A stretch of 64,000 bases of DNA from Pseudomonas sp. B21-015. Lineage in GTDB: Bacteria; Pseudomonadota; Gammaproteobacteria; Pseudomonadales; Pseudomonadaceae. Shown one piece after another: positions 1,331-53,219 of the stretch. Under the pieces are notes generated by a model, which was not told the origin of the DNA, made no database searches, and saw nothing but the letters and a program-made list of their open reading frames with translations. Location of the stretch: the NCBI RefSeq assembly GCF_024749285.1, contig NZ_CP087196.1, forward strand, positions 2,170,001 to 2,234,000. The letters run 5' to 3'. Each line of letters begins with the position of its first letter. Positions within the stretch are counted from its first letter, which is position 1. A program made the translations under genes and the position numbers.

Positions 1331-2464
1331 TTACCAGCCTCTTCCCGAATTCACCCAGAAATTCACCGACAACGACGTCGAGACCGACTCCACCTGATGG
1401 AACCAGCCTTCGGGTAGAAACAGCAGGTCGCCGGCCTCCAGGGTCACCCGCAGAAACGTCACGTCTTGCGCGCCGGGGAAGCGCTGGTAATCCGGCGCAT
1501 CCGGGTTGAAATCACAACCGTCGAGCCCGCCCTGGGGGGCCGTCGACCAGGTGCCGAGGGCTTCGCGGTGATGGGGCGCGGCGAGGGTGAAGGTTTTCTG
1601 GCCCCAGACTTGAGCGAACAGGTTGTCGGTATCGTCGCGATGCAGCGGTGTCAGCGTGCCTTTGGGGCCGATCCAGATGCGTGGCGGGATGAACAGCGCT
1701 TGATCGAAATAGGGCGGGTACTTGATCTGCTCCATCAACTGCGCGGGCAGGATGTTGTTGCCCATGTAAGCCGGTGGTTCGCCATCGGCGCTTTTAACCG
1801 CCGGGGTGTCCAGGGAGGCGATGAACTCGGCCATGGAGGTGGAGCGGAAATCCCGTTCAGTAGAGAAGGTTTTCTTCACGTAATCGCCGTGGCGGGTGAT
1901 GCCTTGCAGTTCGGCGAAATGCACCAGTGACTCTTCGCGGCCGAGCTTGAACAGGGGCCAGTCTTGCAGGGCATCGCTGATCACCAGCGGAATGCCGTGG
2001 GGCAGATAGCGCGTCTCGAACTCCAGCACCGACAGCTCGCTGCGTGGCCGGCGCTCCACCGCGCGTTGGGGCGGCAGGCTCGCAGAGACCTTTTCGCTGA
2101 AACGCGGCGGGGTCGGGTAGCGCTTGTTCATGTCGACCTTTTCCACCACGCCGCCACCATGGCGGGCGTGATCGATGATCTGCGGCAGCATCGTCGCCAG
2201 GCCCATGTTGCCGCCGATTTTCAGGCGGCCGCTGGCGAACAGCTCCTCGACGTTGGCGATGCCGCCCATGATCCCGAGAAAATCCTTTTCCGCGACTTCG
2301 ATGGTCACGTCGGGGCTGGCATGACGGCCGGCTGCGGTGCGGCTGCTGGCCTTGACCTCGGACCAGTACGCCTGGTGCGGGCCGAACACGAATTGAAAAA
2401 CCCCTTCGATGCCGACGGCACCGGCATTGGCAAACAGTTTGCCCAGGATGGTCTGCAGGTCCAC
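1331..2464 (-). CDS. SCP2-like domain fused to a JmjC/cupin_8 Fe(II)-dependent oxygenase, PvdS-type promoter
   Basis: 377 aa from GTG 2464, chosen because an AAGGGG ribosome-binding site lies 7 bases upstream and the promoter box at 2515-2538 rules out longer starts. Residues 1 to about 105 resemble an SCP2 lipid-binding fold (starts DLQTILGKLFANAG). Residues about 140-377 are a cupin_8/JmjC domain with the metal triad H275-R-D277 in PLHRDD and distal H356 in GWFHQVES. Family knowledge: such proteins are 2-oxoglutarate-dependent hydroxylases. The substrate is unknown. It is divergent from a thioesterase in a pyoverdine locus and carries a perfect TAAAT-N16-CGT box, so a tailoring role on an acylated pyoverdine precursor is a reasonable guess. 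It is not one of the standard P. aeruginosa pvd genes. Confidence 0.75.
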   Translation of the reverse strand: MDLQTILGKLFANAGAVGIEGVFQFVFGPHQAYWSEVKASSRTAAGRHASPDVTIEVAEKDFLGIMGGIANVEELFASGRLKIGGNMGLATMLPQIIDHARHGGGVVEKVDMNKRYPTPPRFSEKVSASLPPQRAVERRPRSELSVLEFETRYLPHGIPLVISDALQDWPLFKLGREESLVHFAELQGITRHGDYVKKTFSTERDFRSTSMAEFIASLDTPAVKSADGEPPAYMGNNILPAQLMEQIKYPPYFDQALFIPPRIWIGPKGTLTPLHRDDTDNLFAQVWGQKTFTLAAPHHREALGTWSTAPQGGLDGCDFNPDAPDYQRFPGAQDVTFLRVTLEAGDLLFLPEGWFHQVESVSTSLSVNFWVNSGRGW

Positions 2465-2514
2465 GGCGATGCCCCTTGTTGGTCGGTCTGAGCTATTTTT
2501 AGTCTGAACAAGGG

Positions 2515-2538
2515 ACGAGCACCTGCAACGGAAATTTA
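2515..2538 (-). promoter_or_regulatory. PvdS-type iron-starvation promoter of the SCP2-JmjC gene
   Basis: On the minus strand TAAAT (2538-2534) is followed after exactly 16 bases by CGT (2517-2515), a perfect match to the TAAAT-N16-CGT pattern. It ends 50 bases before the GTG start at 2464. Confidence 0.8.
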
Positions 2539-2550
2539 ACCGGCGCTGAC

Positions 2551-2574
2551 TAATTTTCGCCGCTTGCGGGCCGT
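2551..2574 (+). promoter_or_regulatory. PvdS-type promoter of the type II thioesterase gene
   Basis: TAATT-N16-CGT, one mismatch from TAAAT. It is back to back with the box at 2515-2538, the two lying 12 bases apart on opposite strands. It ends 31 bases before GTG 2606, which argues against the upstream ATG at 2564 because that lies inside the promoter. Confidence 0.65.
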
Positions 2575-2605: not shown

Positions 2606-3343
2606 GTGGTGACCAAGCTGACCCTGCTGTGCCTGCCGTATTCTGGCGCCAGTGCCATGGTCTACAGCCGCTGGCGGCGCAAATTGCCGCAGTGGTTGCA
2701 GTTGCAGCTGGTAGAGCTGCCGGGGCGGGGCGCACGGTTCGGCGAACCGCTGCACACCGACATGCGCGCACTGGCGATGCAATTGGCCAGGGAGCTGAGT
2801 TCGACGCTCAAGGCGCCCTACGCCTTGTTTGGTCATAGCCTGGGGGCCTTGCTGGCATGCGAGATGGCCCACGCCTTTCGTGAGCTGGGCTGCCCGGAAC
2901 CGGTGGCCCTGTTTGCCTCGGGAACGGCGGCGCCCACGATGCGGGCCGACTACGACCGTGGCTTTGCCGAACCGAAAACCGATGCGCAGTTGATCGAGCA
3001 GCTGCGAACACTCAATGGCACCCGCGAAGAGGTGCTGGCCAATGAAGAGCTGATGAGCCTGACACTGCCGATTCTGCGCGCGGACTTTCTGCTGTGCGGA
3101 CGTTTTCAGCCGGTGCAGCGGCCATTGCTCAAGTGCCCGGTGCACGTGCTGGGTGGCAAGTCCGACAAGGCCACCACCGAGCAGTTGATCGGCTGGAGCA
3201 AGGAAACCCATGGCAGCTTTTCGGTGGACATGCTGGCCGGCGGGCACTTCTTCATTCATGAGCATGAAGCCAAGGTGCTGCGGGTGATCAAGGATCAGCT
3301 GGAGGTTCACCATCGGCGGCATGCCTTGGCGGCTGTCGGTTAA
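2606..3343 (+). CDS. pvdG: Type II thioesterase, PvdG-like
   Basis: 245 aa alpha/beta hydrolase, the usual size for NRPS type II thioesterases. The catalytic triad reads as S78 in GHSLGALLA, D187 in GGKSDK and H214 in GGHFF. These enzymes clear misprimed or stalled carrier domains of the assembly line; a cytoplasmic partner of the NRPSs downstream is likely. Two tandem GTG codons (2606 and 2609) follow TGAGG, and either could start translation. In P. aeruginosa pvdG lies beside pvdL; here pvdL is not in the window, so this is either relocated pvdG or a second thioesterase dedicated to the side-chain NRPSs. The symbol is tentative. Confidence 0.8.
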   Translation: MVTKLTLLCLPYSGASAMVYSRWRRKLPQWLQLQLVELPGRGARFGEPLHTDMRALAMQLARELSSTLKAPYALFGHSLGALLACEMAHAFRELGCPEPVALFASGTAAPTMRADYDRGFAEPKTDAQLIEQLRTLNGTREEVLANEELMSLTLPILRADFLLCGRFQPVQRPLLKCPVHVLGGKSDKATTEQLIGWSKETHGSFSVDMLAGGHFFIHEHEAKVLRVIKDQLEVHHRRHALAAVG

Positions 3344-3368
3344 CACGATGCTTCAGTTTGGTGATCTC

Positions 3369-3500
3369 TGTGGCGAGGGAGCTTGCTCCCGCTCGGCTGC
3401 GCAGCAGTCGTAAACCAGCGAATGCGGTATTCCTGATACAGCGAGGTCGCAGGTTTTAGGGTCGCTTCGCAACCCAGCGGGAGCAAGCTCCCTCGCCACA
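3369..3500. repeat. REPIN-type inverted repeat
   Basis: Left arm TGTGGCGAGGGAGCTTGCTC, right arm its complement ending in CTCGCCACA, with internal CGGCTGCGCAGCAGTCG and GGTCGCTTCGCAACC segments. It fills most of the 318-base gap between the thioesterase and the first NRPS. The remainder holds the NRPS promoter. Confidence 0.9.
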
Positions 3501-3584
3501 GGTCTGTGTCCGGCCTTCATTCCTTCGCTACACCGCCGATTCCAGCCGCTTCGACCTCCCTTCCTGATACTTGTTCTCAAACGC

Positions 3585-3607
3585 TAATTTTTCCGGTCTG
3601 CATTCGT
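3585..3607 (+). promoter_or_regulatory. Candidate PvdS-type promoter of the NRPS operon
   Basis: TAATT-N15-CGT: one mismatch in the first element and a spacer one base shorter than at the other sites. Preceded by GC as at several other boxes, and 55 bases upstream of the NRPS start at 3663. This is the weakest match of the set although it would drive about 29 kb of NRPS genes. Confidence 0.5.
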
Positions 3608-3662
3608 TTTATAGGGACGACGTGCCTTTGTGCTTCCTGCCTACTGATCCGGATGCTAAGAA

Positions 3663-29556
<25,894 letters not shown>

Positions 29557-29560
<4 letters not shown>

Positions 29561-32500
29561 ACGAGGTATCGATGGACCAGCAGGACCTGGGTTACGCCTT
29601 GACGCCTGAACAGCAACGGTTGCTGGAGCAGTTGCCCAAGGCCCCGGCCTGTGGCGATGCGCTGCATTTCCTGGAGATCGAGATCAGCGGCGCCCTCGAT
29701 CCGCAGCAGGTGCAAAACGCACTGGATCGGGTGCTGGCGCAACAGCCAATGCTGGTCGCGCGGCTGGGCAAGGCGCCGGGTTTCCATGGTGTCCGGCAGT
29801 TCGTCGGGGGGGCGGAGCGCTTCCCGCTGAGCGTGCAGGCGCGGGTCGATACCCCGGCCGGTATTCAGGCTCAGCTCACCGAATGGGCGGAACGTTCTTT
29901 TGTCGTCGGTGAGTTCGAGGGCGCGCAAGCGGTGCTCTATCGCCTGGCCGATGATCAATGGAAATTGGTGTTGGGCCTGGCCCGGCACAGCCTCGATGAA
30001 AGCGGCGTGCGGTTGCTGTATCGGCAATTGGTGCGGGCCTATGGGCAACAGTCGGCGGCGGACGATGAAGAGACCGGTGAATTCACCCAGTACCTGGAAT
30101 GGCGCAGTGAAGTGGTGCTCGACGAAGACGCGGCCGATGCACGTACTTACTGGCAGGAACACCTGCAAGGCGCCGATCCCGATTTGAGTACTCCGTGGCT
30201 GGCCTATCGCAACGGGAATCCTGGATTGTCGTCGACCACTGAATTGCTGGCGCTCACGCTCGATCCGGCACTGCGCAGCGGTTTGCAGCAAGTGGCCGGG
30301 TCGCTGGAGCAATCGCCGAGTGTGGTGCTGCAAGCGGCCTGGTGGCTGTTGCTGGGTCGACTCAGCGGGCATGAACAGGTGCTGGTCGGTGTGCGGCATG
30401 ACAGTCGCGAAGATTACGAATACTTCAGCGATGCCGTGGGCGTGTTCGAGAAAACCCTGCCGCTGAACCTGCTACTGACGACGAATGCAGCGTTCAGCAC
30501 CTGGGTGGCGGAGTTGGCGGCGCGTCTGGGTGAGCACCGTACGTGGCAGGAATACTGGTCGCCTGAACTGGCGCCGACGGCGGCTCGCCCGGCGTATGGT
30601 TTTGCTGTTTGCCGGGCCACGCAAGCCGCGACGTCCGCTGATTTGCAATGGACTCCGCGTTCGACAGTGCGCGAAGCACTGTTTGAATTAATGCTTGAAC
30701 TGGAAACGGACGAGGCGGGCAACGCCCACGCGTTCCACCTGCATTACAACCCGTCCCGCTACTCGGTCCAGGCGATGGAAGGGTTGCTGGCGCAGTTGCG
30801 CGTATTGCTCGAAAACATCGTTGCCAATCTTCACGCCGAATTCGGTCAACTGAACGTGTTGGAAGCCGCCGAACAACAGCGCTTGCTGTCGATCAACCCG
30901 CCAGCGCGAGCACTGGTCGATAACCGGTTCTTGCCGCAGCGCATTGCCGACTGGGCCCGGACCACGCCGCAAGCCATCGCCCTGACTGACGGCGATCGAC
31001 GCCTGAGTTACGGGCAGTTGCAGGCGAAGGTCGAGGTGTTGGCCCAGGCATTGAAAGCCCAGGGCATGGCGCCGGGAGCTATCGTCGCGCTGGCCTTGCC
31101 ACGCTCGGCGGAGCTGGTGATCGCCATGCTCGCGGCGTGGCGCATCGGCGCGGCGTACCTGCCGCTGGACCCGCAATGGCCGCAAGCCCGTCAAGCATTG
31201 ATGCTGGAACAGGCCGGCGCTGCGTTGCTGCTGGTCGACGCCGGGCACATCGCGCAATGGCACGATTATCCGTTGCCTCTGGCGACCGTGGACCGGGTGC
31301 TGCAATCGGCCCCGGCGAGCACGTCGGCCATCAGCCTCGACACACAGGGCGATCAGGCCGCGTACGTGCTGTTCACCTCCGGCTCCACCGGTATGCCGAA
31401 AGGCGTGGTCATCGAGCACCGGCAATTGCTCAATTACACCGCTCACGTCAGCCAGGCCCTGGGGCTGGAGCAGTGCCAGCAGTTCGGTTTCACCTCCACG
31501 GTGGCGGCGGACCTGGGCAACACGGCGCTGTTCGGCGCCTTGTTCAACGGCGCCTCGCTGCATGTGGCCAGCGATGAGCAGATGCAGGACGGCAATTTGT
31601 TTGCCGATTTCCTGCAACGGCAAGCCATCGATTGCCTGAAGATCGTTCCGTCGCACCTGGCTGCGCTGCTCGACAGCGAACGCGCGCAACTGCCACGCAC
31701 GCTGGTGCTGGGCGGCGAGCCGATTGCCCAGGCATTGGTGCAACGGATCGCCGGTTTGCGCAGTGATTGCCGGGTGTTCAATCACTACGGCCCGACCGAG
31801 GCCACGGTCGGTGTGCTGGTTCATCCGCTGGATCTGGAGGCGGCGGTGCCTGACGCCGGCGTTCTGTCCCGGGTGTTGGGCAACAATCAGGTGTTTGTAC
31901 TCGACGATAACCTGCAACTGGCGCCGGTCGGCGTGCTGGGCGAGTTGTACCTCGGCGGCGCGCAGTTGTGTCGCGGCTACGTGAATGTCGAGGCCGATTC
32001 GCAAGTGTTTATCCAGAGCCCGTTCAATCCGCAGGAGCGCCTGTACCGCACCGGCGACCTGGCCCGTTATCGCCCGGATCTGTCGATTGCGTTGCACGGT
32101 CGGCGCGATCAGCAAATCAAGGTGCGGGGTTTTCGCATCGAACTGGCAGAGATCGAAGTCGAGTTACTGCGTGTGCCGCAGGTCGCGCAAGCACTGGTGT
32201 TGCCGGGGCCGTCCGCGCAAGACGGGATGCTCGCTTTCATCGTGCCGCATCAGGCGCCTTCGGCGACTTTGCTCGATGCCGTTCGCGACGAACTGGCGTT
32301 GCGCCTGCCCAGTGTGATGCTGCCGCAGCACTTGCAGTTGATCGACAGCTTCCCGCGACTGGCCAACGGCAAGGTTGACCGCAAGGCCTTGCAACAACTC
32401 GCGTCCACCTCGGCTGACGATGGAGGCATGCAGCCCCGCGATGCTCTTGAGCAATTGCTGGTGACGCGCATGGCGCAGTTGCTGGGGGGTGAGCGTCTGG

Positions 32501-32790
32501 GCATCGACCGGGACTTTTTCGCCGCCGGGGGCCATTCCTTGCTGGTGATCAAACTGGTGGCCGGTATTCGCAAGTTGTTGCAGTGCGAAATCCAGCCGGG
32601 CGTGGTGTTTGACCATCCGACCGTGGCGGGTCTGGCGGCGGCGTTGCGCTCCCGGGAGAGCAGTCCGGGTCAGTTGGAGAAGATGGCCCAGGCGAGGCTG
32701 CGTCTGGACAACATGAGCCCCGAAGAAAAAGCGTTGCTCACCGAAAAAGCCCGGCAACTGCAAAACGCCAAGGCTGCACAAAACGGTTGA
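29557..32790 (+). CDS. NRPS: interface-type condensation-fold domain, Asp adenylation domain, carrier
   Basis: 1077 aa; ATG 29557 overlaps the upstream stop (ATGA). An alternative ATG at 29572 has a GAGG upstream. Residues about 15-450 have a condensation fold, but the HHxxxDG motif is replaced by R143-H144-S-L-D-E-S149, so canonical condensation is unlikely. The A domain (FTSGSTGMPKG at about 606) has the pocket code DLTKVGHVGK, an Asp code. The carrier motif FFAAGGHSLL is near 987 and a charged helical tail of about 45 residues follows. There is no TE. With the upstream C-hydroxylase end it forms one split module making beta-OH-Asp: the degenerate domain fits the 'interface domain' proposed to dock the hydroxylase onto carrier-bound Asp. 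Release must occur on the pvdD-like protein encoded on the other strand. Confidence 0.88.
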
Positions 32791-32837: not shown

Positions 32838-33132
32838 AATTTTTGCGCAAATGATAAATAAACTCATTCCGGTTTCTGCACGGTGCTGCGTCTTACTTAC
32901 GTAAGCAGATAAATCGAGCCGGGCAGGGTAGCCACAGGGTTCAGTTTTTCCCAGCCGTACACATTTTTACCGCTGCCCGGACAAACGATCGAGCCCGGGG
33001 AGGGGCCGGTCATCGACTTGCGACGTGTTGCCCGAGATGGCAGCCGATCCAGGCGGTTCACAGGTCCAGGCAGCGGCAGGGCACTCGGTTGCCCATGGAT
33101 CCTATCCATTTCAATTAAAAATAGAGAGCACG
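32838..33132 (+). promoter_or_regulatory. Upstream region of the fpvA-like gene
   Basis: No gene seen. Around 32849-32869 there is an AT-rich ATGATAAATAAACTCATT stretch that could be a weak Fur-type site, and TAAAC-N17-CGG (32859-32883) is the closest thing to an iron-starvation promoter. Neither TAAAT in the region (32855, 32910) has CGT at the right distance. In P. aeruginosa the receptor gene is driven by FpvI and PvdS, so a different box is expected; I cannot point to it with confidence. Confidence 0.3.
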
Positions 33133-35613
33133 ATGTCAGCAATTCATGAGTTGAAACCTCTGTTCAAGGCCTTGGTCATTGCCCGAACCCTGTGCTCGCG
33201 TCGCTCGTTGGCCGGTCTGGGCATGGCTTGCCTGCTGCCGCTCAGCGCGCAGGTCCACGCCGAAGACTTCACCCTCAACATTCCTGCCCAGCCTTTGCCT
33301 CAGGCGCTGCAGGCGTTTGGCACGCAGACCAATCAGCAGGTGATCTACAACGCCGATGACATGGCCGGCCTGCGCAGCACACGCGTCAGCGGCAAGTTGA
33401 GCAGCGAAGCGGCGATTGCCCAATTGCTCAAGGGCACGGGCGTGCACTACAGCTTTGAAGGCAACACGCTGATGCTGGTACGCGGCAGTTCGACCGAGGG
33501 TCTGGAACTGGGCGCCACCACCATCAACGCGCAACAGGTGGGCGCGACCACCGAAGGTTCGAATTCCTACACCTCGAATGCCGTGACCATCGGCAAGGGC
33601 ACCCACACCCTCAAGGAAATCCCGCAGTCGGTCACGGTGATGACCCGCAAGCAAATGGATGATCAGGACATCGTCGATCTCAAGGACGCGGCCAACAAGA
33701 CCACCGGACTGGTCGGTGCCCAAGGCGTTGGCAGAGGTTTGATCCTCTCTTCGCGCGGTTTCCAGATCGATGACTGGCAGTACGACGGTGTGCCGATCCC
33801 GCGCAACACTTACGCGCTGGGCAACTGGGCCACGCAGGACTTGATTTTCTTCGACCGCATGGAAGTGCTGCGCGGTGCGTCGGGCTTGCTGCAAGGCACC
33901 GGCAGCCCGGGTGGCGCGGTCAACCTGGTGCGCAAGCGCGGTCAGGCCACACCGACCGTGACCCTGACCGGCAAGGCCGGCTCCTGGGATCACTACGGTC
34001 TGCAACTGGACGCCGGTGGGCCGTTGAACCAGAACGGCACCATCCGTGGACGTTTCCTTGTCGACCAGGACGACACCCACACGTTCGTTGATTCCGAATG
34101 GTACAAGACCACCTCGCTGTACGGCGCGCTGGACTTCGATCTGAGCGAAGCCACTACCGTGGGCGTGGCGGTCAGCCAGTCCGACGGCGAATCGCGCTCG
34201 AATGTCCGCGGTTTCCCGCGTTACTCCGACAGTAAACCCATCGACCTGCCGCGCAGCACATACACCGGGGCGAAGTGGAACCATTCGGATATCGACGTCA
34301 CCACGCTCTACACCGATCTGGAACACCGTTTCAACGACGACTGGGCCTTCAAGGTCGGCGCCGTGCGCATGACGGAAACCAACAAGGCGAAGAACCAGCG
34401 GGTGCAATCCTCCGGCGATGGCATCAATCCCGATGGCAGCGGCGTGCAATACGCTGACTTCGTGACGGACATGGACTCCACCAAAGTCGCTCTGGACATG
34501 AACCTCACCGGCAAGTTCGAAGCCTTGTCCATGCCGCAGGAAATCATGGTGGGCGGCAACTATTCCAAATACACCTCGGACGACAAATACGCCCGAACCT
34601 TCAATGACAGCTCCGACAATATCTTCGACATTGATCACAACCGTCCGCAGATCAGCTACGAAGGCTTGATCAATAGCCCCGGTGGTCGTGGGACTCCCAG
34701 CCAATACGACATCCGCCAGAAAGGCCTGTACGGCAGCTGGCGGGTCAAGCCTGTTGAAGACCTGACCCTGGTGCTCGGCTCGCGGGTCAGTTGGTACGAC
34801 TACAATTACAAGTCTTCGACCCAGACCGCGACCGGCATTACAGACGATCCAAAAAGCACCGCCACCGAAACCGGGGAAGTCACGCCCTACGCCGGCATCA
34901 TTTATGACCTGAGCCGTGAATGGGCGGTCTACGCCAGTTACACCGACGTATATACACCGCAAACCGAACGCGATACCGCCGGCTCGGTACTTAAACCGAT
35001 TGTCGGCAGTAACTACGAGGTGGGTCTCAAGGGCGAGTTGATGGATGGCCGGATCAATACATCCGTGGCCCTGTTCCGTTACGACCAGGAAAACCGTGCC
35101 GTTCTCGATACGCAGGGTGCGCAAACCTGCGACGGTTGGTATTGCTCGACGGCATCGGGCAAAGTGCGCAGCCAAGGTCTGGACGCTGAAATCAGCGGCG
35201 AAGTGATCGACAATCTGCAACTGTTTGCCGGCTACACCTACAACACCACCCAATACCTCGACGACCCTGACAACGAAGGCAAAATCTTCAGCTGGTGGAC
35301 GCCTAAACACATGCTGCGTGTGTGGGGCAATTATCAGTTGAGCGGCGACTGGAGCCGTGTGAGTACCGGCCTGGGCTTTACCGCACAAACCCACACGGTA
35401 GGTTTCGACCACTCCGTCAACGTTCCGGGTTATACCGTGTGGAATGCCCGTGTCGGCTACCAGCTCACCCCGGAAATCGAGCTGGCGATGAATGCCAACA
35501 ACCTGTTTGACAAGACCTACTTCGCAGCGGCCTACAACCAGATTAACGGCAACAACAACTACGGTGATCCACGCAACGTGATGTTCAGCGTGAAGTACAC
35601 GCCGGAGTTCTGA
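33133..35613 (+). CDS. fpvA: Ferripyoverdine TonB-dependent outer membrane receptor, FpvA-like, with signalling domain
   Basis: 826 aa from ATG 33133 (AGAGAG upstream); P. aeruginosa FpvA is about 815 aa. An N-terminal signal peptide ends near AQVHA-ED at about residue 45. An STN signalling domain follows (FTLNIPAQPLPQALQAF), the part that contacts a FecR-type anti-sigma factor. A plug domain contains KEIPQSVTVMTRKQM, then a 22-strand barrel ends in the typical aromatic C-terminus KYTPEF. It imports ferric pyoverdine and signals through anti-sigma/sigma factors. It stands alone between the NRPS operon and the convergent pvdD-like gene, with terminators on both sides. Which pyoverdine it recognises is inferred from position: it should match the product of the neighbouring NRPSs. 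Confidence 0.93.
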   Translation: MSAIHELKPLFKALVIARTLCSRRSLAGLGMACLLPLSAQVHAEDFTLNIPAQPLPQALQAFGTQTNQQVIYNADDMAGLRSTRVSGKLSSEAAIAQLLKGTGVHYSFEGNTLMLVRGSSTEGLELGATTINAQQVGATTEGSNSYTSNAVTIGKGTHTLKEIPQSVTVMTRKQMDDQDIVDLKDAANKTTGLVGAQGVGRGLILSSRGFQIDDWQYDGVPIPRNTYALGNWATQDLIFFDRMEVLRGASGLLQGTGSPGGAVNLVRKRGQATPTVTLTGKAGSWDHYGLQLDAGGPLNQNGTIRGRFLVDQDDTHTFVDSEWYKTTSLYGALDFDLSEATTVGVAVSQSDGESRSNVRGFPRYSDSKPIDLPRSTYTGAKWNHSDIDVTTLYTDLEHRFNDDWAFKVGAVRMTETNKAKNQRVQSSGDGINPDGSGVQYADFVTDMDSTKVALDMNLTGKFEALSMPQEIMVGGNYSKYTSDDKYARTFNDSSDNIFDIDHNRPQISYEGLINSPGGRGTPSQYDIRQKGLYGSWRVKPVEDLTLVLGSRVSWYDYNYKSSTQTATGITDDPKSTATETGEVTPYAGIIYDLSREWAVYASYTDVYTPQTERDTAGSVLKPIVGSNYEVGLKGELMDGRINTSVALFRYDQENRAVLDTQGAQTCDGWYCSTASGKVRSQGLDAEISGEVIDNLQLFAGYTYNTTQYLDDPDNEGKIFSWWTPKHMLRVWGNYQLSGDWSRVSTGLGFTAQTHTVGFDHSVNVPGYTVWNARVGYQLTPEIELAMNANNLFDKTYFAAAYNQINGNNNYGDPRNVMFSVKYTPEF

Positions 35614-40094: not shown

Positions 40095-41753
40095 TCAGAC
40101 CGCCGCCAACGACGGCTTCTGCGCGACGACCCGTCCGCCCTCCATCCGCACCAATTGGTCGGCGACATCGAAGTAACGGTCGTCGTGGGAAATGACGATG
40201 ATGGTCTTGCCCAGGTATTTGAGTTCCGGCAACAGCTCGGTGTAGAAGATGCGCCGGAAGGCCGGGTCCTGGTCGGCCGCCCACTCGTCGAACACCAGCA
40301 CCGGGCGTTCTTCCAGCCAGGCGTTCAACAGGGCCAGGCGTTTGCGCTGGCCGGTGGACAGGTCGGTGGTGCTGAAGGCGCCATCGCGGATGCTGACCTT
40401 GTGCGAGATTTCCAGGCGTTCCAGGTAACGGTTGGCGTCTTCGGGAACGTTCTGTTCGCCTTGCACCAATTCGTCGAACAGGTAGTAGTCGGCGAAAATC
40501 GTGGTGAACAACTGGCGATAGTCGTCGCGGTCATGCGCCAGGACCGGCTTACCGTTAAGGATGATTTCCCCGCCCTGCGGCGCATACAGCCCCAGCAACA
40601 ACTTGATCAGCGTGGTCTTGCCGCCGCCATTCTCGCCGACGATGAACACGATCTCGCCCTGGACGATGGACAGGTTGACCGGCCCGAGGGCGAAGGGCTT
40701 GCTGCCGTCCACCGCCGGGAAGGCGAAATGCACGTCGCGCAATTCAAGGTGTTCGACCACCGGTTTCGGCGCGTCTTTGTCACTGAGCAGCAGGTGCGGT
40801 TCCGGTGAAGAAAACTGCTCCGCCAGATCGGCGATGCGCTTGAACGCAATGTTGGCGCGGCTGACCACCGGCAGGGTGGTGACCAGGTATTCCATCGGGC
40901 CCTTCATGTACAGCAGCACCAGCACGAACCCGCTGAGCACCGCTTTATCAGTGCCCAGCCACAGCGATTGCAGAGCCAGCGCCAGGCCGATCACCACGAA
41001 AAACAGCATCGAGCCAAGGGTCTTGGCTACCACGAAGGTGTTGACCGCGCGGATGTGCGTGTTGCAGATGAAATCAGCGGTGCCTTCGATGCGTTGGCTG
41101 AACATGCGTTGGCGGCGTGGACGATGGATGCGCAGTTCCTTGGCGCCGGCGGCAATCGCGCTGTAGTGCTTTTGCAGTTCGTCCTCGGCCTCGCGAGCCG
41201 CCTGGAAACCCTTGATGCCCTTGGCCCGGGCCACGTATTGCAGCGCGGTGCCGATCACCAGGGCCACCAGCAGCAAGGCAAACATCGGCAACGACAGGTA
41301 GGCCAGGTAGCTCAGGCACCCGAGGGTGACGGTGAACGCAATGGCCAGCGGCGCGAAGGAAAAGGCGAAATCACTGACGGTGTCGACGTCATGGGTCAGC
41401 ACCGGAATCAGCCGATAACTGCGGAAGCGCTCGATCTGTTCGATCGGTGCCAACAGGACTTTTTCCCCCAGGGATTTACGCAGCCCGGCAATGATGTGCT
41501 GCCCGACATGGTTGGTGCCAATGTCCGACAGGATCGACGTCAGCAACGCCACCGCGCACAGGCCGATAAACGTTGCCAACACCCGGGTTGACGGGGTGCC
41601 GGCGGCGTTCAGCGCGTCATTGATGGTCGCCAGTAACGCGGTGATGCTGAGGCCACCGAGCATGCCGAGCATGATCGACACCACAACGATGACCCGGAAA
41701 GGCCTGAGCAGGCCGAGGACTTCACTGAAGGCTCCGCGGGATTTTGAGGTCAT
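40095..41753 (-). CDS. pvdE: Pyoverdine precursor ABC exporter PvdE
   Basis: 552 aa from ATG 41753; P. aeruginosa PvdE is about 549 aa. A TTG at 41795 extends the frame but is less likely. The N-terminal half is a type I ABC transmembrane domain with about six hydrophobic segments. The C-terminal half is an ATPase with Walker A GENGGGKTT at about 371, signature LSTGQRKRL and Walker B PVLVFDEW. PvdE exports acylated or deacylated ferribactin from cytoplasm to periplasm. A perfect PvdS-type box lies 61 bases upstream. In P. aeruginosa pvdF precedes pvdE towards pvdO; here pvdF is absent. Confidence 0.93.
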   Translation of the reverse strand: MTSKSRGAFSEVLGLLRPFRVIVVVSIMLGMLGGLSITALLATINDALNAAGTPSTRVLATFIGLCAVALLTSILSDIGTNHVGQHIIAGLRKSLGEKVLLAPIEQIERFRSYRLIPVLTHDVDTVSDFAFSFAPLAIAFTVTLGCLSYLAYLSLPMFALLLVALVIGTALQYVARAKGIKGFQAAREAEDELQKHYSAIAAGAKELRIHRPRRQRMFSQRIEGTADFICNTHIRAVNTFVVAKTLGSMLFFVVIGLALALQSLWLGTDKAVLSGFVLVLLYMKGPMEYLVTTLPVVSRANIAFKRIADLAEQFSSPEPHLLLSDKDAPKPVVEHLELRDVHFAFPAVDGSKPFALGPVNLSIVQGEIVFIVGENGGGKTTLIKLLLGLYAPQGGEIILNGKPVLAHDRDDYRQLFTTIFADYYLFDELVQGEQNVPEDANRYLERLEISHKVSIRDGAFSTTDLSTGQRKRLALLNAWLEERPVLVFDEWAADQDPAFRRIFYTELLPELKYLGKTIIVISHDDRYFDVADQLVRMEGGRVVAQKPSLAAV

Positions 41754-41814
41754 GGAAGTTTCCGCTTCAAGTGCCGCTAAAGGGCAAAGGTTCAAGAGTT
41801 TGGCTGCTTAAAAG

Positions 41815-41884: not shown

Positions 41885-42772
41885 TCAAAGATCTCGCGCG
41901 ACGCGAAAACCGATCCAGTCGCCACGGGTGTCGGGGTAGGTGGCATTACGGTTGCCCGAACGCGAGAACACCGGTGCTTCACCCCAGTCATTGCCGCGAA
42001 TGCGCCGGGCTGTGCATTCGCCGGTCAACCACGCACTGCCATCGCTCGGTGCACCGACGTAGTTCTCGTTGTAGCAATCGGCGGTCCACTCATAGACGTT
42101 GCCGTGCATGTCGTACACACCGAAGGCGTTGGCCGGGAAGCTGCCCGCCGGTGAGGTGAAGTTGTAGCCATCGGCGGCGCCGTAGGTGTTGGCGTGTCTG
42201 GCGATGCTGTATTCCTTGCCTTCATCGAACGGGAAGGGGAACGGGCCGCTGCTGCCCGCGCGGGCGGCATACTCACGCAGCGATTCGCTGACCAATCGAT
42301 AGTGTTTGCCGGTCTTCTTCGAGAGCCAGGCCACGTAGGCATTGACCTCGGGGAAGTCCATGCACACCGCCGGATGCCTGGCCGTGCGCTCATAGCGCGG
42401 CACGCCGGCCTTGCACTCGCGGCCCGGCCGGGTGTCGCCGTCGGGCATGACGTAACCGCTGTCGCGCAGGTAGGCGTCCCACTCGCCGGCCAGCACCTGA
42501 AAGCGGCTGATGGCCAGCGGTTTGGTAAAGGTCACCGGGTGCAACGGACCTTCGTCGGGTTCGCGCCCCACTTCATTGTCCGGGGTGCCCATGGTGAAGG
42601 TTCCGGTGGGCAGCACGACCATCTCCGGGCAGTCCTTGCAGTCCTTGAACACCTTTCCGGGCGGGGCGGGTGCGGCGGCCTGAGCGGCGCCCGGCAGCAG
42701 GCCGGCAACCACGGCGGCGAAGGCCAGTGCGGGGAGCGTCTTCAGGGAAAAGCTACGCAGCTCACTGTTCAT
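41885..42772 (-). CDS. pvdO: Periplasmic pyoverdine maturation protein PvdO (formylglycine-enzyme fold)
   Basis: 295 aa from ATG 42772 (an ATG at 42775 is adjacent; CGAGAG upstream). A Sec signal peptide ends near AAQA-AAP. The rest is an FGE-sulfatase fold: MVVLPTGTFTMGTPDNE near the start, VYEWTADCYNENY and the C-terminal IGFRVARDL. In P. aeruginosa PvdO is needed for the last oxidation of dihydropyoverdine to pyoverdine. The 161-base gap to pvdN contains a REPIN and no promoter box, so it is probably read from the pvdM promoter. Confidence 0.92.
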   Translation of the reverse strand: MNSELRSFSLKTLPALAFAAVVAGLLPGAAQAAAPAPPGKVFKDCKDCPEMVVLPTGTFTMGTPDNEVGREPDEGPLHPVTFTKPLAISRFQVLAGEWDAYLRDSGYVMPDGDTRPGRECKAGVPRYERTARHPAVCMDFPEVNAYVAWLSKKTGKHYRLVSESLREYAARAGSSGPFPFPFDEGKEYSIARHANTYGAADGYNFTSPAGSFPANAFGVYDMHGNVYEWTADCYNENYVGAPSDGSAWLTGECTARRIRGNDWGEAPVFSRSGNRNATYPDTRGDWIGFRVARDL

Positions 42773-42813
42773 CATTGCTCTCGATAAAAAGTTGAAAGGA
42801 AGGGCGCGAAACC

Positions 42814-42903
42814 TGTGGGAGCGAGCCTGCTCGCGAATGCGATGTGTCATTTAACGAAGATGTTGACTGACTGGGCGCCTTCGCGAGCAGGCTCGCTCCC
42901 ACA
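42814..42903. repeat. REPIN in the pvdN-pvdO gap
   Basis: Inverted pair TGTGGGAGCGAGCCTGCTCG and complement ending CTCCCACA, spacer about 40 bases. It lies inside what looks like one operon, where such hairpins can affect mRNA stability. Confidence 0.9.
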
Positions 42904-42933: not shown

Positions 42934-44214
42934 TCAGAGCTGTTTGCCGAGCAACGCGATGAAGCGGTCGACTTCAGCTTCGGTGTTGAGCAGCCCCGGC
43001 GCCGTGCGGATCACCGGACCCACGTCGCGCTCCACGGCATCGGCGATCACGCGGTTTTGCATCAACCAGGCGGCGATCTTGTCGCTGTCCTGACCCTTGA
43101 CCCGAAAGAAGCTGAAACCGGACGACAGTTCGGGGCTCAGGGGCGTGACCAGTTCGATCTGCGGGTGCGCTTGCAGGCGTTTTTTCATATAGCTGTTCAG
43201 GGCATGGATACGCGCCTGAACATCGGCCTTGCCCAATTGCAAATGCAGCTTGAAGGCTTCGTTCAGCGCCCAGCGGTGCTCGAACGAGTGGTAGCCGCCC
43301 GGCGTCATGGTGGTGGAGAACGCCGTGGCTTCGGAGAAGGTCGGAATGATCGGCGTGACGTATTTGACCTCCTCGCTGCGGCTGCACACGATGCCCGTGC
43401 CACGGGGGCCGAACATCCATTTGTGGGTGCCGGCGATGAAGAAGTCGCAGTTCATGGCCGGAAAACTCAGGTCCTCGACACCAAAACCGTGCACGCCGTC
43501 GACCAGGTAAATAATGCGGTCCTGCTCGGCGCGGTGGCGGTTGTGCTTGTCCACCAGCGCGCCGATTTGCGCGATCGGTAGTTTCACGCCGCTGCCAGAG
43601 TGCACCCAGGTCATGCCCAGTACGCGGGTTTCGGGGTTGATGTTCTGGTCGATCGCGGCAAGGATCTGCGCTTTGGAGGCCGTCTGCGGGTCCTTGAACA
43701 ACCTGATCTTGCGCACCCGGGTGCCGTCCCGTTGGGTGCGCAGATCGAGGATGGTGTGGGTCGCGTAATGCTCGTGGGCCGTGGTGAGGATTTCCTGATC
43801 CGGGCGCACATGAACGCCACCGTAAATCATCGCCAGGCCTTCGGTGGTGCTGCCGGTCAAGGCGATCTGTTTGGCATTGGCTTGCAGGTAACGACCGGCC
43901 CAGACGCGCACCTCTTCTTCGCGCGGCTCGATCACACCCAGGTCCCAGTCCATCGCCAGCCCGGGGTTTTTGTCGAGGGCGGCACGGTGCATCTCGATCG
44001 CTTCACGTACCGGTTTGGGGTGCGAGGTGATCAGGAAATTGGAGAAATGCAGGTAGTCCGGATCCTGGTCGAACAGCTGCCGCAGCTGCGCCCATTTGTC
44101 CCCAGGCTGCGAGGGCTGTGGCGTGGCGCTGGCGACGTTGTCCAGGCCGGCCGTCAAGGGCAGGCCGGCGGCGAGGATCCCGGCCTGTTTCAGAAAGGTG
44201 CGACGATCGCTCAT
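42934..44214 (-). CDS. pvdN: PLP-dependent periplasmic enzyme PvdN (chromophore side-chain modification)
   Basis: 426 aa, the same size as P. aeruginosa PvdN. The N-terminus MSDRRTFLKQAG is a twin-arginine signal, consistent with export of a folded cofactor-bound protein. The aminotransferase class V fold has the PLP lysine at K265 in GTHKWMFG. PvdN converts the chromophore glutamate side chain to a succinamide. The ATG at 44214 overlaps the pvdM stop (ATGA), so it is translationally coupled to pvdM. Confidence 0.93.
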   Translation of the reverse strand: MSDRRTFLKQAGILAAGLPLTAGLDNVASATPQPSQPGDKWAQLRQLFDQDPDYLHFSNFLITSHPKPVREAIEMHRAALDKNPGLAMDWDLGVIEPREEEVRVWAGRYLQANAKQIALTGSTTEGLAMIYGGVHVRPDQEILTTAHEHYATHTILDLRTQRDGTRVRKIRLFKDPQTASKAQILAAIDQNINPETRVLGMTWVHSGSGVKLPIAQIGALVDKHNRHRAEQDRIIYLVDGVHGFGVEDLSFPAMNCDFFIAGTHKWMFGPRGTGIVCSRSEEVKYVTPIIPTFSEATAFSTTMTPGGYHSFEHRWALNEAFKLHLQLGKADVQARIHALNSYMKKRLQAHPQIELVTPLSPELSSGFSFFRVKGQDSDKIAAWLMQNRVIADAVERDVGPVIRTAPGLLNTEAEVDRFIALLGKQL

Positions 44215-45581
44215 GGTTTGCTCGTGCCTTGTTGTGAAATCAGCGCCGGCTTGGCGGCTTTCTGCACCTGATCCCAGACCCGCAGGAAGTTGCCGCCCCA
44301 GAGCTTGGCGATGTCCGCCTCGGAGTAGCCACGGGAGATCAGTTCCGCCGTGACATTGCGAATGTCACCGACGTTTTCCCAGCCTTTGACGCCGCCCCCT
44401 TCGTTGAAGTCGGAGCTGATGCCGACATGGTCGATGCCGATTTTTCGCACTGTGTAATCGATGGCGTCACCGAGGTCCTTGAGGCTGGCTTTGGGTTCTT
44501 CTTCAAGAATCGCGTAGAGACGGCTGGCGTACTGGCCGAATTTTTTCTCCGGCCAGGCCGCGATGACCGGATCGCCCGGCATCAATGCCACGGCGAGGTT
44601 CGGCAGGGGCGGCAGGTCGAACTCTTTGCGCAATTCGTTGAGTTTGTCCTGGGTGGTCTGGGTCAGCGGGCGCAGGTATTGGGAGAAACCGACCACTTGC
44701 ACCACGCCGCCGCTGTTCTTGATCAGCTGCATTTCCTTGTCGCTGAGATTGCGCGGGATATCGACCATTGCCCGTGGCGCCGAGTGCGAAGCGACCATGG
44801 GTGTACGGCTCAATTGCGCGACTTGTTCCAGGGCCTTGGTCGACATTTGCGACACGTCGATGATCACGCCCAGGTCGTTCAAGCGATGCACCGCTTGCTT
44901 GCCCAGGTCGGAGAGGCCGTCGAGGGCGTCTGGCGAATCGTTGAAAAACGGTAGGGGGCGCGAAGAGTCGGCCCAGTCGTTATTGCCGATGTAGCTGAAG
45001 CCGAACATGCGCATGCCGCGTGCCGTCCACAGGTCCAGCAGGTTCAGGTCATGGCCCAGCGGGTAGGCATTGAGCATGCTGATGAAAATCGCGAACTTGC
45101 CTTCACCGTGCAAGCGACGGAAATCATCGGGGGTGTAGGCGATGGCGACCTGGTTGGGGAAGTCGCGGACCATGCCGGAAATAATCTTGTAGCGGATCTC
45201 TTGCTGGTTGCGTGCCTCTTCGACGAAACCGGCGGTGGGCCTGTGCGGCGCGTTGGCGCCATTCCACAGTTCCGGCCAGCCGAAAATCGTCAGGGCCGCG
45301 CCAGACAGCTGTCCACGGTTGGCCTTGACCAGGTCGAACTGGCCCTTGCCGTCCTTGTCGGCTTCGTTGCCCTGGGTGCCGAAGTTCTGCATCAGGCTGA
45401 TGTGGCTGTCGAAGGAGAGCATGCGCTCGTGCAACTCGTCGGCCTGTTTCATGACCTTGATCGGGTAGCCGGGGTTGTCCTTGAACCCGTAATACCAGAC
45501 CGCCAAGCCTGCGCCGGCGCTGATCGCCAAGGCCAGCGGCAGGCCGATGTAAAGAGCCTTTTTCGAACGTGGTTTTGTCAT
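44211..45581 (-). CDS. pvdM: Periplasmic dipeptidase-like protein PvdM
   Basis: 456 aa from ATG 45581 (an ATG two codons upstream at 45587 is possible); P. aeruginosa PvdM is about 448 aa. An N-terminal signal anchor (ALYIGLPLALAISAGAGLAV) follows a basic stretch. The rest is a membrane dipeptidase (peptidase M19) fold, with MLSFDSHISLMQN near the start and DHVGISSDFNEGGG near the end. In P. aeruginosa it is required for pyoverdine maturation after PvdQ and with PvdP. It is the first gene of a pvdM-pvdN-pvdO operon with a TAATT-N16-CGT promoter. Confidence 0.92.
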   Translation of the reverse strand: MTKPRSKKALYIGLPLALAISAGAGLAVWYYGFKDNPGYPIKVMKQADELHERMLSFDSHISLMQNFGTQGNEADKDGKGQFDLVKANRGQLSGAALTIFGWPELWNGANAPHRPTAGFVEEARNQQEIRYKIISGMVRDFPNQVAIAYTPDDFRRLHGEGKFAIFISMLNAYPLGHDLNLLDLWTARGMRMFGFSYIGNNDWADSSRPLPFFNDSPDALDGLSDLGKQAVHRLNDLGVIIDVSQMSTKALEQVAQLSRTPMVASHSAPRAMVDIPRNLSDKEMQLIKNSGGVVQVVGFSQYLRPLTQTTQDKLNELRKEFDLPPLPNLAVALMPGDPVIAAWPEKKFGQYASRLYAILEEEPKASLKDLGDAIDYTVRKIGIDHVGISSDFNEGGGVKGWENVGDIRNVTAELISRGYSEADIAKLWGGNFLRVWDQVQKAAKPALISQQGTSKP

Positions 45582-45643
45582 TGCCATCTCTGTCAGGTTC
45601 GCCGCCCCGGTGCAGGCGCAGGGGCCTTTGCTATCTGGGAGGA

Positions 45644-45667
45644 ACGAGTGGCTGGCAGAAAAAATTA
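45644..45667 (-). promoter_or_regulatory. PvdS-type promoter of pvdMNO
   Basis: TAATT (45667-45663) and CGT (45646-45644) with a 16-base spacer on the minus strand; one mismatch from TAAAT. It lies 62 bases upstream of the pvdM start. Confidence 0.65.
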
Positions 45668-45685
45668 GGAGACAGCGAGATACCT

Positions 45686-45818
45686 TGTGGCGAGGGAGCT
45701 TGCTCCCGTTGGACTGCGAAGCAGTCCTGAAACCTGCAACCTCGTTCTGCCAGGCACACCGCATGCGCCGGATTTACGTCTGCTTCGCAGCCGAGCGGGA
45801 GCAAGCTCCCTCGCCACA
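45686..45818. repeat. REPIN-type inverted repeat between pvdM and pvdP
   Basis: Left arm TTGTGGCGAGGGAGCTTGCT, right arm its complement ending CTCGCCACA. It separates the two divergent PvdS-type promoters at 45644-45667 and 45840-45863. Confidence 0.9.
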
Positions 45819-45863: not shown

Positions 45864-45908
45864 TCTAGCTTGGATAAAGCCTGCTTCATGGCTGACACAG
45901 GTAGGGCA

Positions 45909-47537
45909 ATGACGATTTCTCGACGATGGTTCATGGCAGGCCTGGCGCTGACGGGCGCTGCCGTGCCTGCGGCTTATTATGGGCATCGCGAATGGACGAA
46001 ACCCGACCCCACGATCACCCCTGGCGAAGCGACGGTCGACCTGGCGGACACTGCGGGTCAGCAGTTGGCCAACTCGCTGCGAGGGATCTGGGATATCCGC
46101 TTTGAAGGATCCCGGGCAGGCCTCGACGGTTTACCGCAGAGCGGGCTGGAGCTGTTTATCGACATCGCCCAGCGTGGCCGTGGCCTGCGTGGCTGCCTCG
46201 ATACCGCGCAGCAGTTACGCAGCGAAGCCGAACCACGTTACCGGGTGATCGGCGATCTGGTGTCGCCTGACGCCAGCCAGTTGTACTGGCGCCTGGTCGA
46301 CACACAATCGGCCAACGGCGCGCCGGCCTATGAGCTGGCGGTCATGCTCGATGAGGTCTGGGCTGATTTCGGCAATGCCGGCAGTGGCACGCTCAGCGGG
46401 CGGATTCTGCGTCTGGATCACCCGCTCGGTTTGCCGGAACTGGACAATCGATTTGTCGCGCGCAAACGACTGTTTCCCGAAGCCCGGGAGCGGGTCGGTC
46501 TGAATCCGCCGTTGCTGGCGTGGCTGATTTCCGCCGAACACCGCTTGTTCCACCAGCTCTGGCACGCCACGCGGGACAAATGGCACAAACTCTCCGAAGC
46601 CCAGCGCGGTGCCTTGCGGGGTATCGGCTGGCAGCCGGGCCCGCGAGGCAATGAGCGCGATGCCCGGGGGCCGCGCAAGGACCGTAATGGTTCGGGGGTC
46701 GACTTTTTCTTCATGCACCGGCACATGCTCGGCACGGCGCGTTCGATGCAGGACCTGCCGTCCTGGTCGAGCTTTCCGATGCCGCAGCCGGAGCTTGAAC
46801 GCGACCGTCAGGGCTTCGCCCGCTATTTCGACAATCACGATGGCACGGCGCTGCCGCCCACCTGGCTGGCCGCCGAAGACACCGAGTACACCCGGTGGGT
46901 CAGCGACATCAAGACCGCCGAGACCTACCACAGCAATTTTCAGGTCTGGGAGTCCCGTTATCGCGACCCGCGTTATCTGTCGAAGATGACCCTGGGGCAG
47001 TTCGGTTCAGAGGTCGAGCTGGGCCTGCACGACTGGCTGCACATGCGCTGGGCCTCGGTGCCGCGCGATCCGTCCAACGGTCAGCCGGTGCCTTTCGCCC
47101 GGGATCCGGCGGACTTTTCCGCGCGTTGGTATGCGCCGGAAAACGACTTCCTCGGTGACCCGTTTTCATCCCACGTGAACCCTGTGTTCTGGCACTTTCA
47201 CGGTTGGATCGACGATCGTCTGGAAGACTGGTTCCGCGCCCACGAACGTTTCCATCCGGGGGAGGTCAGTCGGCTTGAGGTCAATGGCGTGCGCTGGTTC
47301 GCGCCGGGGCGCTGGGTTGAAGTCGATGATCCGTGGCTTGGTCCGAGCACCCACGGTTGCAGCACCACGCCGGGATTGCAGGTCGGCAAGTCGGTGGAAA
47401 TGGACCCGGAAACCATGAAGCTGGCGCTGCGCATCACCTTCGGCACTGATGAAAAGAAACTGGCGGATTTGTTCCGGCGGGTGCCGCAACGGCCGTGGTA
47501 TGCGCGGAATCTGAAGGTCAAGCCGCTGAGGTCGTAA
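45909..47537 (+). CDS. pvdP: Pyoverdine chromophore tyrosinase PvdP
   Basis: 542 aa; P. aeruginosa PvdP is about 544 aa. The N-terminus MTISRRWFMAGLAL is a twin-arginine signal. The C-terminal part is a tyrosinase-like di-copper domain, with histidines in RLFHQLWH, FFMHRHMLG and HVNPVFWHFHGW. PvdP hydroxylates and oxidises the D-Tyr of ferribactin to build the chromophore in the periplasm. The start was chosen by the TAT motif, the size and the promoter position. Monocistronic, divergent from pvdMNO and convergent with opmQ. Confidence 0.94.
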   Translation: MTISRRWFMAGLALTGAAVPAAYYGHREWTKPDPTITPGEATVDLADTAGQQLANSLRGIWDIRFEGSRAGLDGLPQSGLELFIDIAQRGRGLRGCLDTAQQLRSEAEPRYRVIGDLVSPDASQLYWRLVDTQSANGAPAYELAVMLDEVWADFGNAGSGTLSGRILRLDHPLGLPELDNRFVARKRLFPEARERVGLNPPLLAWLISAEHRLFHQLWHATRDKWHKLSEAQRGALRGIGWQPGPRGNERDARGPRKDRNGSGVDFFFMHRHMLGTARSMQDLPSWSSFPMPQPELERDRQGFARYFDNHDGTALPPTWLAAEDTEYTRWVSDIKTAETYHSNFQVWESRYRDPRYLSKMTLGQFGSEVELGLHDWLHMRWASVPRDPSNGQPVPFARDPADFSARWYAPENDFLGDPFSSHVNPVFWHFHGWIDDRLEDWFRAHERFHPGEVSRLEVNGVRWFAPGRWVEVDDPWLGPSTHGCSTTPGLQVGKSVEMDPETMKLALRITFGTDEKKLADLFRRVPQRPWYARNLKVKPLRS

Positions 47538-52606: not shown

Positions 52607-53089
52607 ATGTTGGAAAACTACTATCGCGAGCTGGTGTGTTTCCTGAACGCCAAGCTAGGCAACCGTCAGGTGGCCGAAGATGTGGTGCATGACGCTTATC
52701 TGCGGGTACTGGAGCGTTCCAGCGACACGCCGATCGAGCAACCCCGGGCGTTCCTTTATCGCACCGCGCTCAACCTGGTGATCGACGACCACCGCCGCAA
52801 TGCCTTGCGTCAGGTCGAATCCCTGGACGTGCTCGACAGCGAAGAGCGCTACTTCATCCCCTCGCCCCACAACAGCCTCGATCACGGTCAGCGCCTGGAC
52901 ATGCTCCAGCGCGCGCTGGCGGAGTTGCCACGGCTGTGTCGCGAGAGTTTTCTGTTGCGCAAGATCGAAGGCTTGTCGCACCCGCAAATCGCCGAGCACC
53001 TGGGGATTTCCCGGGCGCTGGTGGAAAAGCACATCGTCAATGCCATGAAGCATTGCCGGGTGCGCATGCGCCAGTGGGATGCTCCTTAA
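52607..53089 (+). CDS. fpvI: ECF sigma factor of the iron-starvation group, FpvI-like
   Basis: 160 aa, close to the 159 aa of P. aeruginosa FpvI and shorter than PvdS (187 aa). It contains sigma region 2 (VVHDAYLRVLER, RAFLYRTALNLVIDDHRR) and region 4 helix-turn-helix (LSHPQIAEHLGISRALVEKHI). Family role: transcription of the ferripyoverdine receptor gene after signalling through FpvA. The position beside pvdA and pvdRT-opmQ matches P. aeruginosa fpvI. GGAG lies only 2 bases before the ATG, so the following TTG (52610) could be the real start. The neighbouring fpvR anti-sigma gene is missing. A Fur-like site lies upstream instead of a PvdS box. Confidence 0.82.
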   Translation: MLENYYRELVCFLNAKLGNRQVAEDVVHDAYLRVLERSSDTPIEQPRAFLYRTALNLVIDDHRRNALRQVESLDVLDSEERYFIPSPHNSLDHGQRLDMLQRALAELPRLCRESFLLRKIEGLSHPQIAEHLGISRALVEKHIVNAMKHCRVRMRQWDAP

Positions 53090-53100
53090 TCAGGCCGCGT

Positions 53101-53124
53101 TAAATTTTTTTTCATTGTCCTCGT
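53101..53124 (+). promoter_or_regulatory. PvdS-type promoter of pvdA
   Basis: Perfect TAAAT-N16-CGT starting 11 bases after the sigma factor stop codon, 95 bases before the pvdA start. Confidence 0.8.
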
Positions 53125-53219
53125 TCCTATTCAACAGACGATCTGCTGCCGCCAAAGGCCGGTCAGGTCACCCAGGCTTTATCCCCGCTGCTCCGGGGTT
53201 TATCCAGAGGACACTGGAA

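Follow-up and report, generated by a model that had tools for sequence, protein, structure and literature searches.

Gene X of Pseudomonas sp. B21-015 lies in the pyoverdine locus of a 64,000-nucleotide stretch of DNA (the window; contig NZ_CP087196.1, positions 2,170,001–2,234,000) and encodes a 377-residue protein that joins an SCP2 domain to a JmjC-type oxygenase domain. That X belongs to the pyoverdine system and takes part in pyoverdine synthesis is well supported. With a probability of about one half, we propose that X is the missing hydroxylase for malamide and malate side chains, acting on the N-acylated first glutamate of ferribactin before export while its SCP2 domain holds the acyl chain. 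According to a 2018 review (PMC6206403), malamide or malate replaces succinamide in some species, PAO1 and A506 not being among them, and the responsible enzyme, then unknown, most likely hydroxylates succinamide. The biosynthesis of these side chains is called unknown in a 2022 review as well (PMC9569983). None of the papers listed in a survey of open-access literature deals, judged by title or word counts, with a pyoverdine-related protein of the JmjC or SCP2 kind, an earlier mention elsewhere being possible.

X was read as an open reading frame (ORF) with a GTG start. In the Pfam scan, residues 21–97 matched SCP2 (PF02036) with 38.5 bits, above the gathering cut-off of 21.3, and residues 148–370 matched Cupin_8 (PF13621) with 124.2 bits, against a cut-off of 27.4. 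JmjC_2 (PF08007) also exceeded its cut-off (27.2 vs. 22 bits), and JmjC (PF02373) stayed below it (20.2 vs. 24 bits). In an alignment of 36 sequences, the metal triad H275/D277/H356 is invariant, together with T272, N281, and K290. Hence, the hallmarks of JmjC-type Fe(II)/2-oxoglutarate (2OG) hydroxylases, an H-x-D...H triad and the 2OG-binding lysine (K290), are conserved, and the architecture originally predicted from the bare sequence, an SCP2 plus Cupin_8/JmjC protein with a complete triad, is confirmed by Pfam and the alignment. The 2OG/Fe site looks intact, and catalysis is predicted. By fold, X most closely resembles JMJD5, JMJD7, TYW5, and FIH in a comparison that barely covers the N-terminal part; with JMJD5, X shares about 25% identity in addition to the fold likeness. 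No export signal is evident by eye. The UbiT model (NF047962) scored 14.4 bits on X, below its cut-off of 46.9, and the TauD family (PF02668) gave no match for X in the Pfam scan, X lying outside the five TauD places found.

The original prediction also placed a perfect PvdS-type (iron-starvation) promoter ahead of X. The box TAAAT-N16-CGT is indeed exact, its first base lying 74 bases ahead of the start codon. Six exact copies of the motif occur in the window against 0.45 expected, a number reached in none of 100 shuffles, although one of them (28276) falls within the coding sequence of the second peptide synthetase. Over the whole genome, 50 exact matches compare with 45 for the reversed control pattern. 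The motif alone is thus no more frequent than chance genome-wide, yet it is concentrated at this locus. Since genome-wide matches barely exceed the control, conservation among orthologs is the better test. Box and neighbourhood counts were made on the best 80 of 92 relatives (the named loci). Within 160 bp upstream of X, 72 of these loci have a perfect box, four have one mismatch, one has two, and three have three or more; the boxes mostly begin about 60 bp before the gene, and shuffled upstream stretches (20 shuffles each) contained no perfect box. A chance match was therefore rejected, and X shows the mark of the PvdS regulon, an upstream TAAAT-N16-CGT conserved among orthologs. The three boxless copies all follow a pvd gene on the same strand, namely pvdN in L049 (~70 bp) and pvdP in L114 (~60 bp) and L109 (~260 bp).

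Matches to X were found in 69 of 298 sampled Pseudomonas genomes, and 65 were kept as orthologs, including two copies split in two (G034 and G105) and one partial copy (G080). Those left out matched in the JmjC part only (G103 and G174, 33 and 38% identity) or were fragments (G153 and G208); G153, G174, and G208 are PvdP-positive, and G103 is negative. All 65 X-positive genomes carry pvdP, compared with 210 of the 298 overall (P = 3.7e-12, hypergeometric, genome relatedness ignored). The occurrence of X in genomes without pyoverdine genes was thus examined, and no ortholog lay in a PvdP-negative genome, the JmjC-only match of G103 not being counted. Together with the conserved PvdS-type box, this distribution lends support to the earlier idea of an undescribed pyoverdine tailoring oxygenase. 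In a family-wide sample, X matches occurred in 8 of 248 genomes and 3 of 19 genera; in a class-wide sample of 229 genomes, the sole match was the window's own genome. Named carriers include Pseudomonas fulva NBRC 16637 (L044), P. capeferrum WCS358, P. putida NBRC 14671, P. brenneri, P. thivervalensis, and Azotobacter vinelandii. Two carriers are labelled Pseudomonas syringae (L052 and L092), and one, L093, is labelled Pantoea sp. Ap-967, where X stands beside a pyoverdine-like non-ribosomal peptide synthetase (NRPS); this label looks like that of a misnamed Pseudomonas. The split copies (G034:C1:3008553-3009625 and G105:C144:40234-41363), in one of which a stop was read, could be natural nulls or assembly errors.

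The surroundings of X also point to pyoverdine. At least one pyoverdine-type match was present in the fetched DNA of 77 of the 80 named loci, L113 being counted only via a weak receptor match. The neighbours comprise NRPS (63 loci), thioesterase (52), pvdH (13), pvdP (12), pvdM (11), and pvdN (8), where NRPS and receptor calls are similarity matches that need not be pyoverdine-specific. The position of X varies among pyoverdine sites. In P. fluorescens types, it lies beside the thioesterase and a peptide NRPS; in P. putida types, it lies near pvdN, directly behind it in L049; in L116, it is located between pvdM and pvdP. In three species without a PvdN over the cut-off, namely A. vinelandii, P. 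carbonaria, and P. lopnurensis, X follows pvdP. The order in A. vinelandii is two pvdO-like genes, pvdM, pvdP, and X, with a PvdQ-like acylase (named by eye) farther on. For PvdN, this genome gave only weak matches, as did 12 of 14 control genomes.

The side-chain assignment draws on published pyoverdine masses. P. fulva NBRC 16639 makes a pyoverdine with the peptide Asp-Ser-Ser-AcOHOrn-Lys-Lys-cOHOrn, in which a form of m/z 1220.56 was assigned by tandem mass spectrometry (MS/MS) to malic acid (Mala) and another form has m/z 1204.57 (PMC12195549). The difference of 15.99 corresponds to one oxygen. By mass, 1204.57 is succinamide and 1205.54 succinate, the opposite of what that paper's text states, and 1220.56 fits malamide. 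As the peptide contains no C-hydroxylated residue, the side chain must carry the additional oxygen. The X-carrying strain NBRC 16637 shows the corresponding pair 1204.56/1220.55 (PMC12195549); the P. fulva evidence therefore spans two strains, with X located in NBRC 16637 and MS/MS from NBRC 16639. NBRC 16637 also encodes a second PvdN-like protein (G750:C32:74531-75787; 405.5 bits vs. the PvdN cut-off of 650), a candidate for PtaA or for some other tailoring enzyme.

The cytoplasm is the expected location of 2OG oxygenases, and X lacks an evident signal peptide; therefore, if X makes the hydroxyl, it would act before export on the acylated precursor, where an SCP2 domain would make sense. The site of action of PvdN, PvdP, and PvdQ is the periplasm (PMC6206403). 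Upon iron starvation, PvdS would transcribe X along with the other pyoverdine genes. The precursor would be acyl-Glu, either still bound to PvdL or already released. With its N-acyl (myristoyl-type) chain held by the SCP2 domain, the side chain of the neighbouring glutamate would be hydroxylated by the JmjC domain, C4 being a possible site. After export by PvdE and deacylation by PvdQ, PvdN, judging from its published reaction, would turn hydroxyglutamate into malamide instead of succinamide, and hydrolysis of malamide would give malate. In A. vinelandii, where PvdN seems to be missing, hydroxylation might speculatively aid side-chain loss and formation of the azotobactin ring. An SCP2 part holding an acylated precursor was already envisaged in the original prediction, and this putative function fits the domain and the apparent absence of an export signal. 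No substrate was named there; the first glutamate, leading to malamide and malate, is an inference added by the present analysis.

Several observations weigh against a malamide/malate hydroxylase. No hydroxylated glutamate had been found at the time of the 2018 review (PMC6206403). Mass pairs differing by 16 occur in 11 of the 13 strains in the mass table of PMC12195549, according to our arithmetic on that table. Such pairs were consequently rejected as a strong test of the malamide role, and because they are so common, the one seen in P. putida NBRC 14671, an X-positive strain, is weak evidence. One of them belongs to NBRC 14164, which is outside the X-positive list, a list made without a look-up of that strain. 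For strain W15Oct28, considered by chemistry alone, ketoglutarate is the sole side-chain form made (PMC4219678). PvdN was detected in 61 of the 65 X-positive genomes and is absent from the other four, as it is from four of nine hand-picked named X-positive genomes, and no significant association between X and PvdN was observed among PvdP-positive genomes (P = 0.32). In L110, L117, and L118, the fetched DNA contains no recognised pyoverdine neighbour. Finally, NBRC 16637, although X-positive, shows a signal of 1115.47, named azotobactin type -16 by the authors, and lacks the azotobactin form of m/z 1131.50 that NBRC 16639 makes besides its malic-type form (PMC12195549).

It is conceivable, though rather unlikely, that X hydroxylates another part of the precursor, namely a peptide residue, the D-Tyr/diaminobutyrate (Dab) precursor of the chromophore, or the fatty acyl chain, where the change would be hidden by PvdQ removal. 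X tracks the pathway and not the side-chain gene pvdN, it lies beside a peptide NRPS or the thioesterase in many loci, and the acyl chain itself might be what an SCP2 domain presents. A peptide residue as the target is, however, difficult to reconcile with P. fulva, a species that has X and whose peptide contains no C-hydroxylated residue. For β-hydroxyaspartate (OHAsp), the window moreover holds a candidate dedicated enzyme, the TauD domain fused to NRPS 2, which we take to be the expected Asp β-hydroxylase. This function may thus be covered in cis, and X looks like an additional, spare oxygenase because that domain is the expected OHAsp hydroxylase. On these two grounds, X was rejected as the OHAsp hydroxylase. 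It appears very improbable that X is a JMJD5/FIH-like protein hydroxylase or regulatory oxygenase whose target under iron starvation is a ribosomal protein, an NRPS, or a different Pvd protein. JMJD5, JMJD7, and FIH are protein hydroxylases and are among the best fold matches of X, but product tailoring accounts better for the fusion to SCP2, for the patchy distribution, and for the confinement of X to pyoverdine genomes.

Azotobactin requires separate consideration. A. vinelandii is the classic azotobactin maker, and X follows pvdP there and in two further species with no PvdN over the cut-off. The azotobactin mass equals that of the malamide form minus C3H7NO2 (89.048), with observed differences of 89.04 and 89.06 in P. 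putida GB-1 and NBRC 16639. Considered by chemistry alone, GB-1 produces malamide-pyoverdine at 30.7% and azotobactin at 53.9% of the peak area (PMC4019867); its strain name is not among the matches to X listed (best 120 of 136). By our own reasoning, a C4 hydroxyl would adjoin the carbon kept as the azotobactin carbonyl. These points would suit an X serving mainly the azotobactin-type chromophore, with malamide as a by-product or intermediate, which we regard as quite improbable. Azotobactin requires side-chain loss, which one hydroxylation alone does not cause; the mass relation is a consequence of composition and no proof of a precursor; frequent co-production of azotobactin with pyoverdine is reported; and NBRC 16637, as mentioned above, shows 1115.47 in place of 1131.50. 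The malamide/malate hydroxylase could also be extended to a joint role, in which X provides (perhaps 4-)hydroxyglutamyl acyl-ferribactin in the cytoplasm, from which PvdN leads to malamide and, where PvdN is missing, side-chain loss leads to azotobactin; this extension is unlikely, the more so as the signal of NBRC 16637 is that of azotobactin type -16. The production of both forms by GB-1 and NBRC 16639 and the location of X beside pvdP in A. vinelandii lend weaker support to the proposed malamide/malate hydroxylase.

The pyoverdine-related features that the window holds around X are listed below. The divergent thioesterase with its own box, likewise part of the original prediction, is present; its box is a variant, TAATT-N16-CGT. 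Of the 51 named loci scored for this box, 50 carry it with one mismatch and one carries a perfect copy; in a control with a single shuffle per locus, one-mismatch boxes arose in 2 of 51. The thioesterase frame is open from 2564, but judged by eye its translation probably begins with the GTG at 2606. No PvdS box with at most one mismatch precedes NRPS 1 (window 3346–3663), which may rely on the thioesterase promoter or on a variant box; a TAATT-N15-CGT is visible by eye ahead of it at ~3585. The terminal NRPS module is convergent to the main NRPS operon and lies between the receptor gene and pvdE. Five plus-strand ORFs overlying this module gave no Pfam matches.

Table 1. Gene X and the pyoverdine-related features of the window.
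Feature	Position	Strand	Basis
Gene X, SCP2 + Cupin_8/JmjC	1331..2464	-	ORF, Pfam, alignment
Perfect PvdS (iron-starvation) box of X, TAAAT-N16-CGT	2515..2538	-	0 mismatches
Variant PvdS box of thioesterase, TAATT-N16-CGT	2551..2574	+	one mismatch from consensus
Stand-alone thioesterase, divergent from X	2606..3343	+	PF00975, 150.5 bits
Peptide NRPS 1, 4126 aa	3663..16043	+	ORF, NRPS core motifs
Peptide NRPS 2, 4506 aa, C-terminal TauD domain (residues 4199–4485)	16040..29560	+	domain search
TauD-type hydroxylase domain fused to NRPS 2 C-terminus	28634..29494	+	domain search
Peptide NRPS 3, 1077 aa, C-A-T	29557..32790	+	domain search
TonB-dependent receptor (fpvA position)	33025..35613	+	Pfam
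Terminal NRPS module C-A-T-TE, 1415 aa	35783..40030	-	domain search
pvdE-type cyclic peptide exporter	40095..41795	-	TIGR01194 over cut-off
pvdO	41885..42850	-	NF051459 over cut-off
pvdN, succinamide-forming enzyme, proposed to act after X	42934..44214	-	NF051467 over cut-off
pvdM-type dipeptidase	44211..45764	-	PF01244
pvdP tyrosinase	45870..47537	+	NF051454 over cut-off
pvdA-type ornithine N-monooxygenase	53079..54557	+	PF13434

If the proposed role of X is correct, the side-chain type of a pyoverdine would become predictable from genomes, the SCP2 domain would represent a means of directing hydroxylases to peptide precursors anchored by a lipid, and the presence of X in Azotobacter would tie it to the azotobactin chromophore.

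X can be compared with several known systems. It differs from the Cupin_8/JmjC hydroxylases JMJD5, JMJD7, TYW5, and FIH in its N-terminal SCP2 domain and its pyoverdine setting. With the SyrP-like, TauD-family Asp/His β-hydroxylases of siderophores, X would share Fe/2OG hydroxylation in a siderophore NRPS pathway; however, X belongs to Cupin_8 and has no TauD match. PvdN and PtaA have the first glutamate of pyoverdine as their target (PMC6206403), the same residue proposed for X, but they are periplasmic pyridoxal phosphate (PLP) enzymes, whereas X is of the oxygenase type with no evident signal peptide. In ubiquinone synthesis, the SCP2 domain of UbiJ and UbiT serves hydroxylases whose substrate bears a lipid tail. 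The SCP2 domain is common to these proteins and X, and in X it is fused to the hydroxylase itself.
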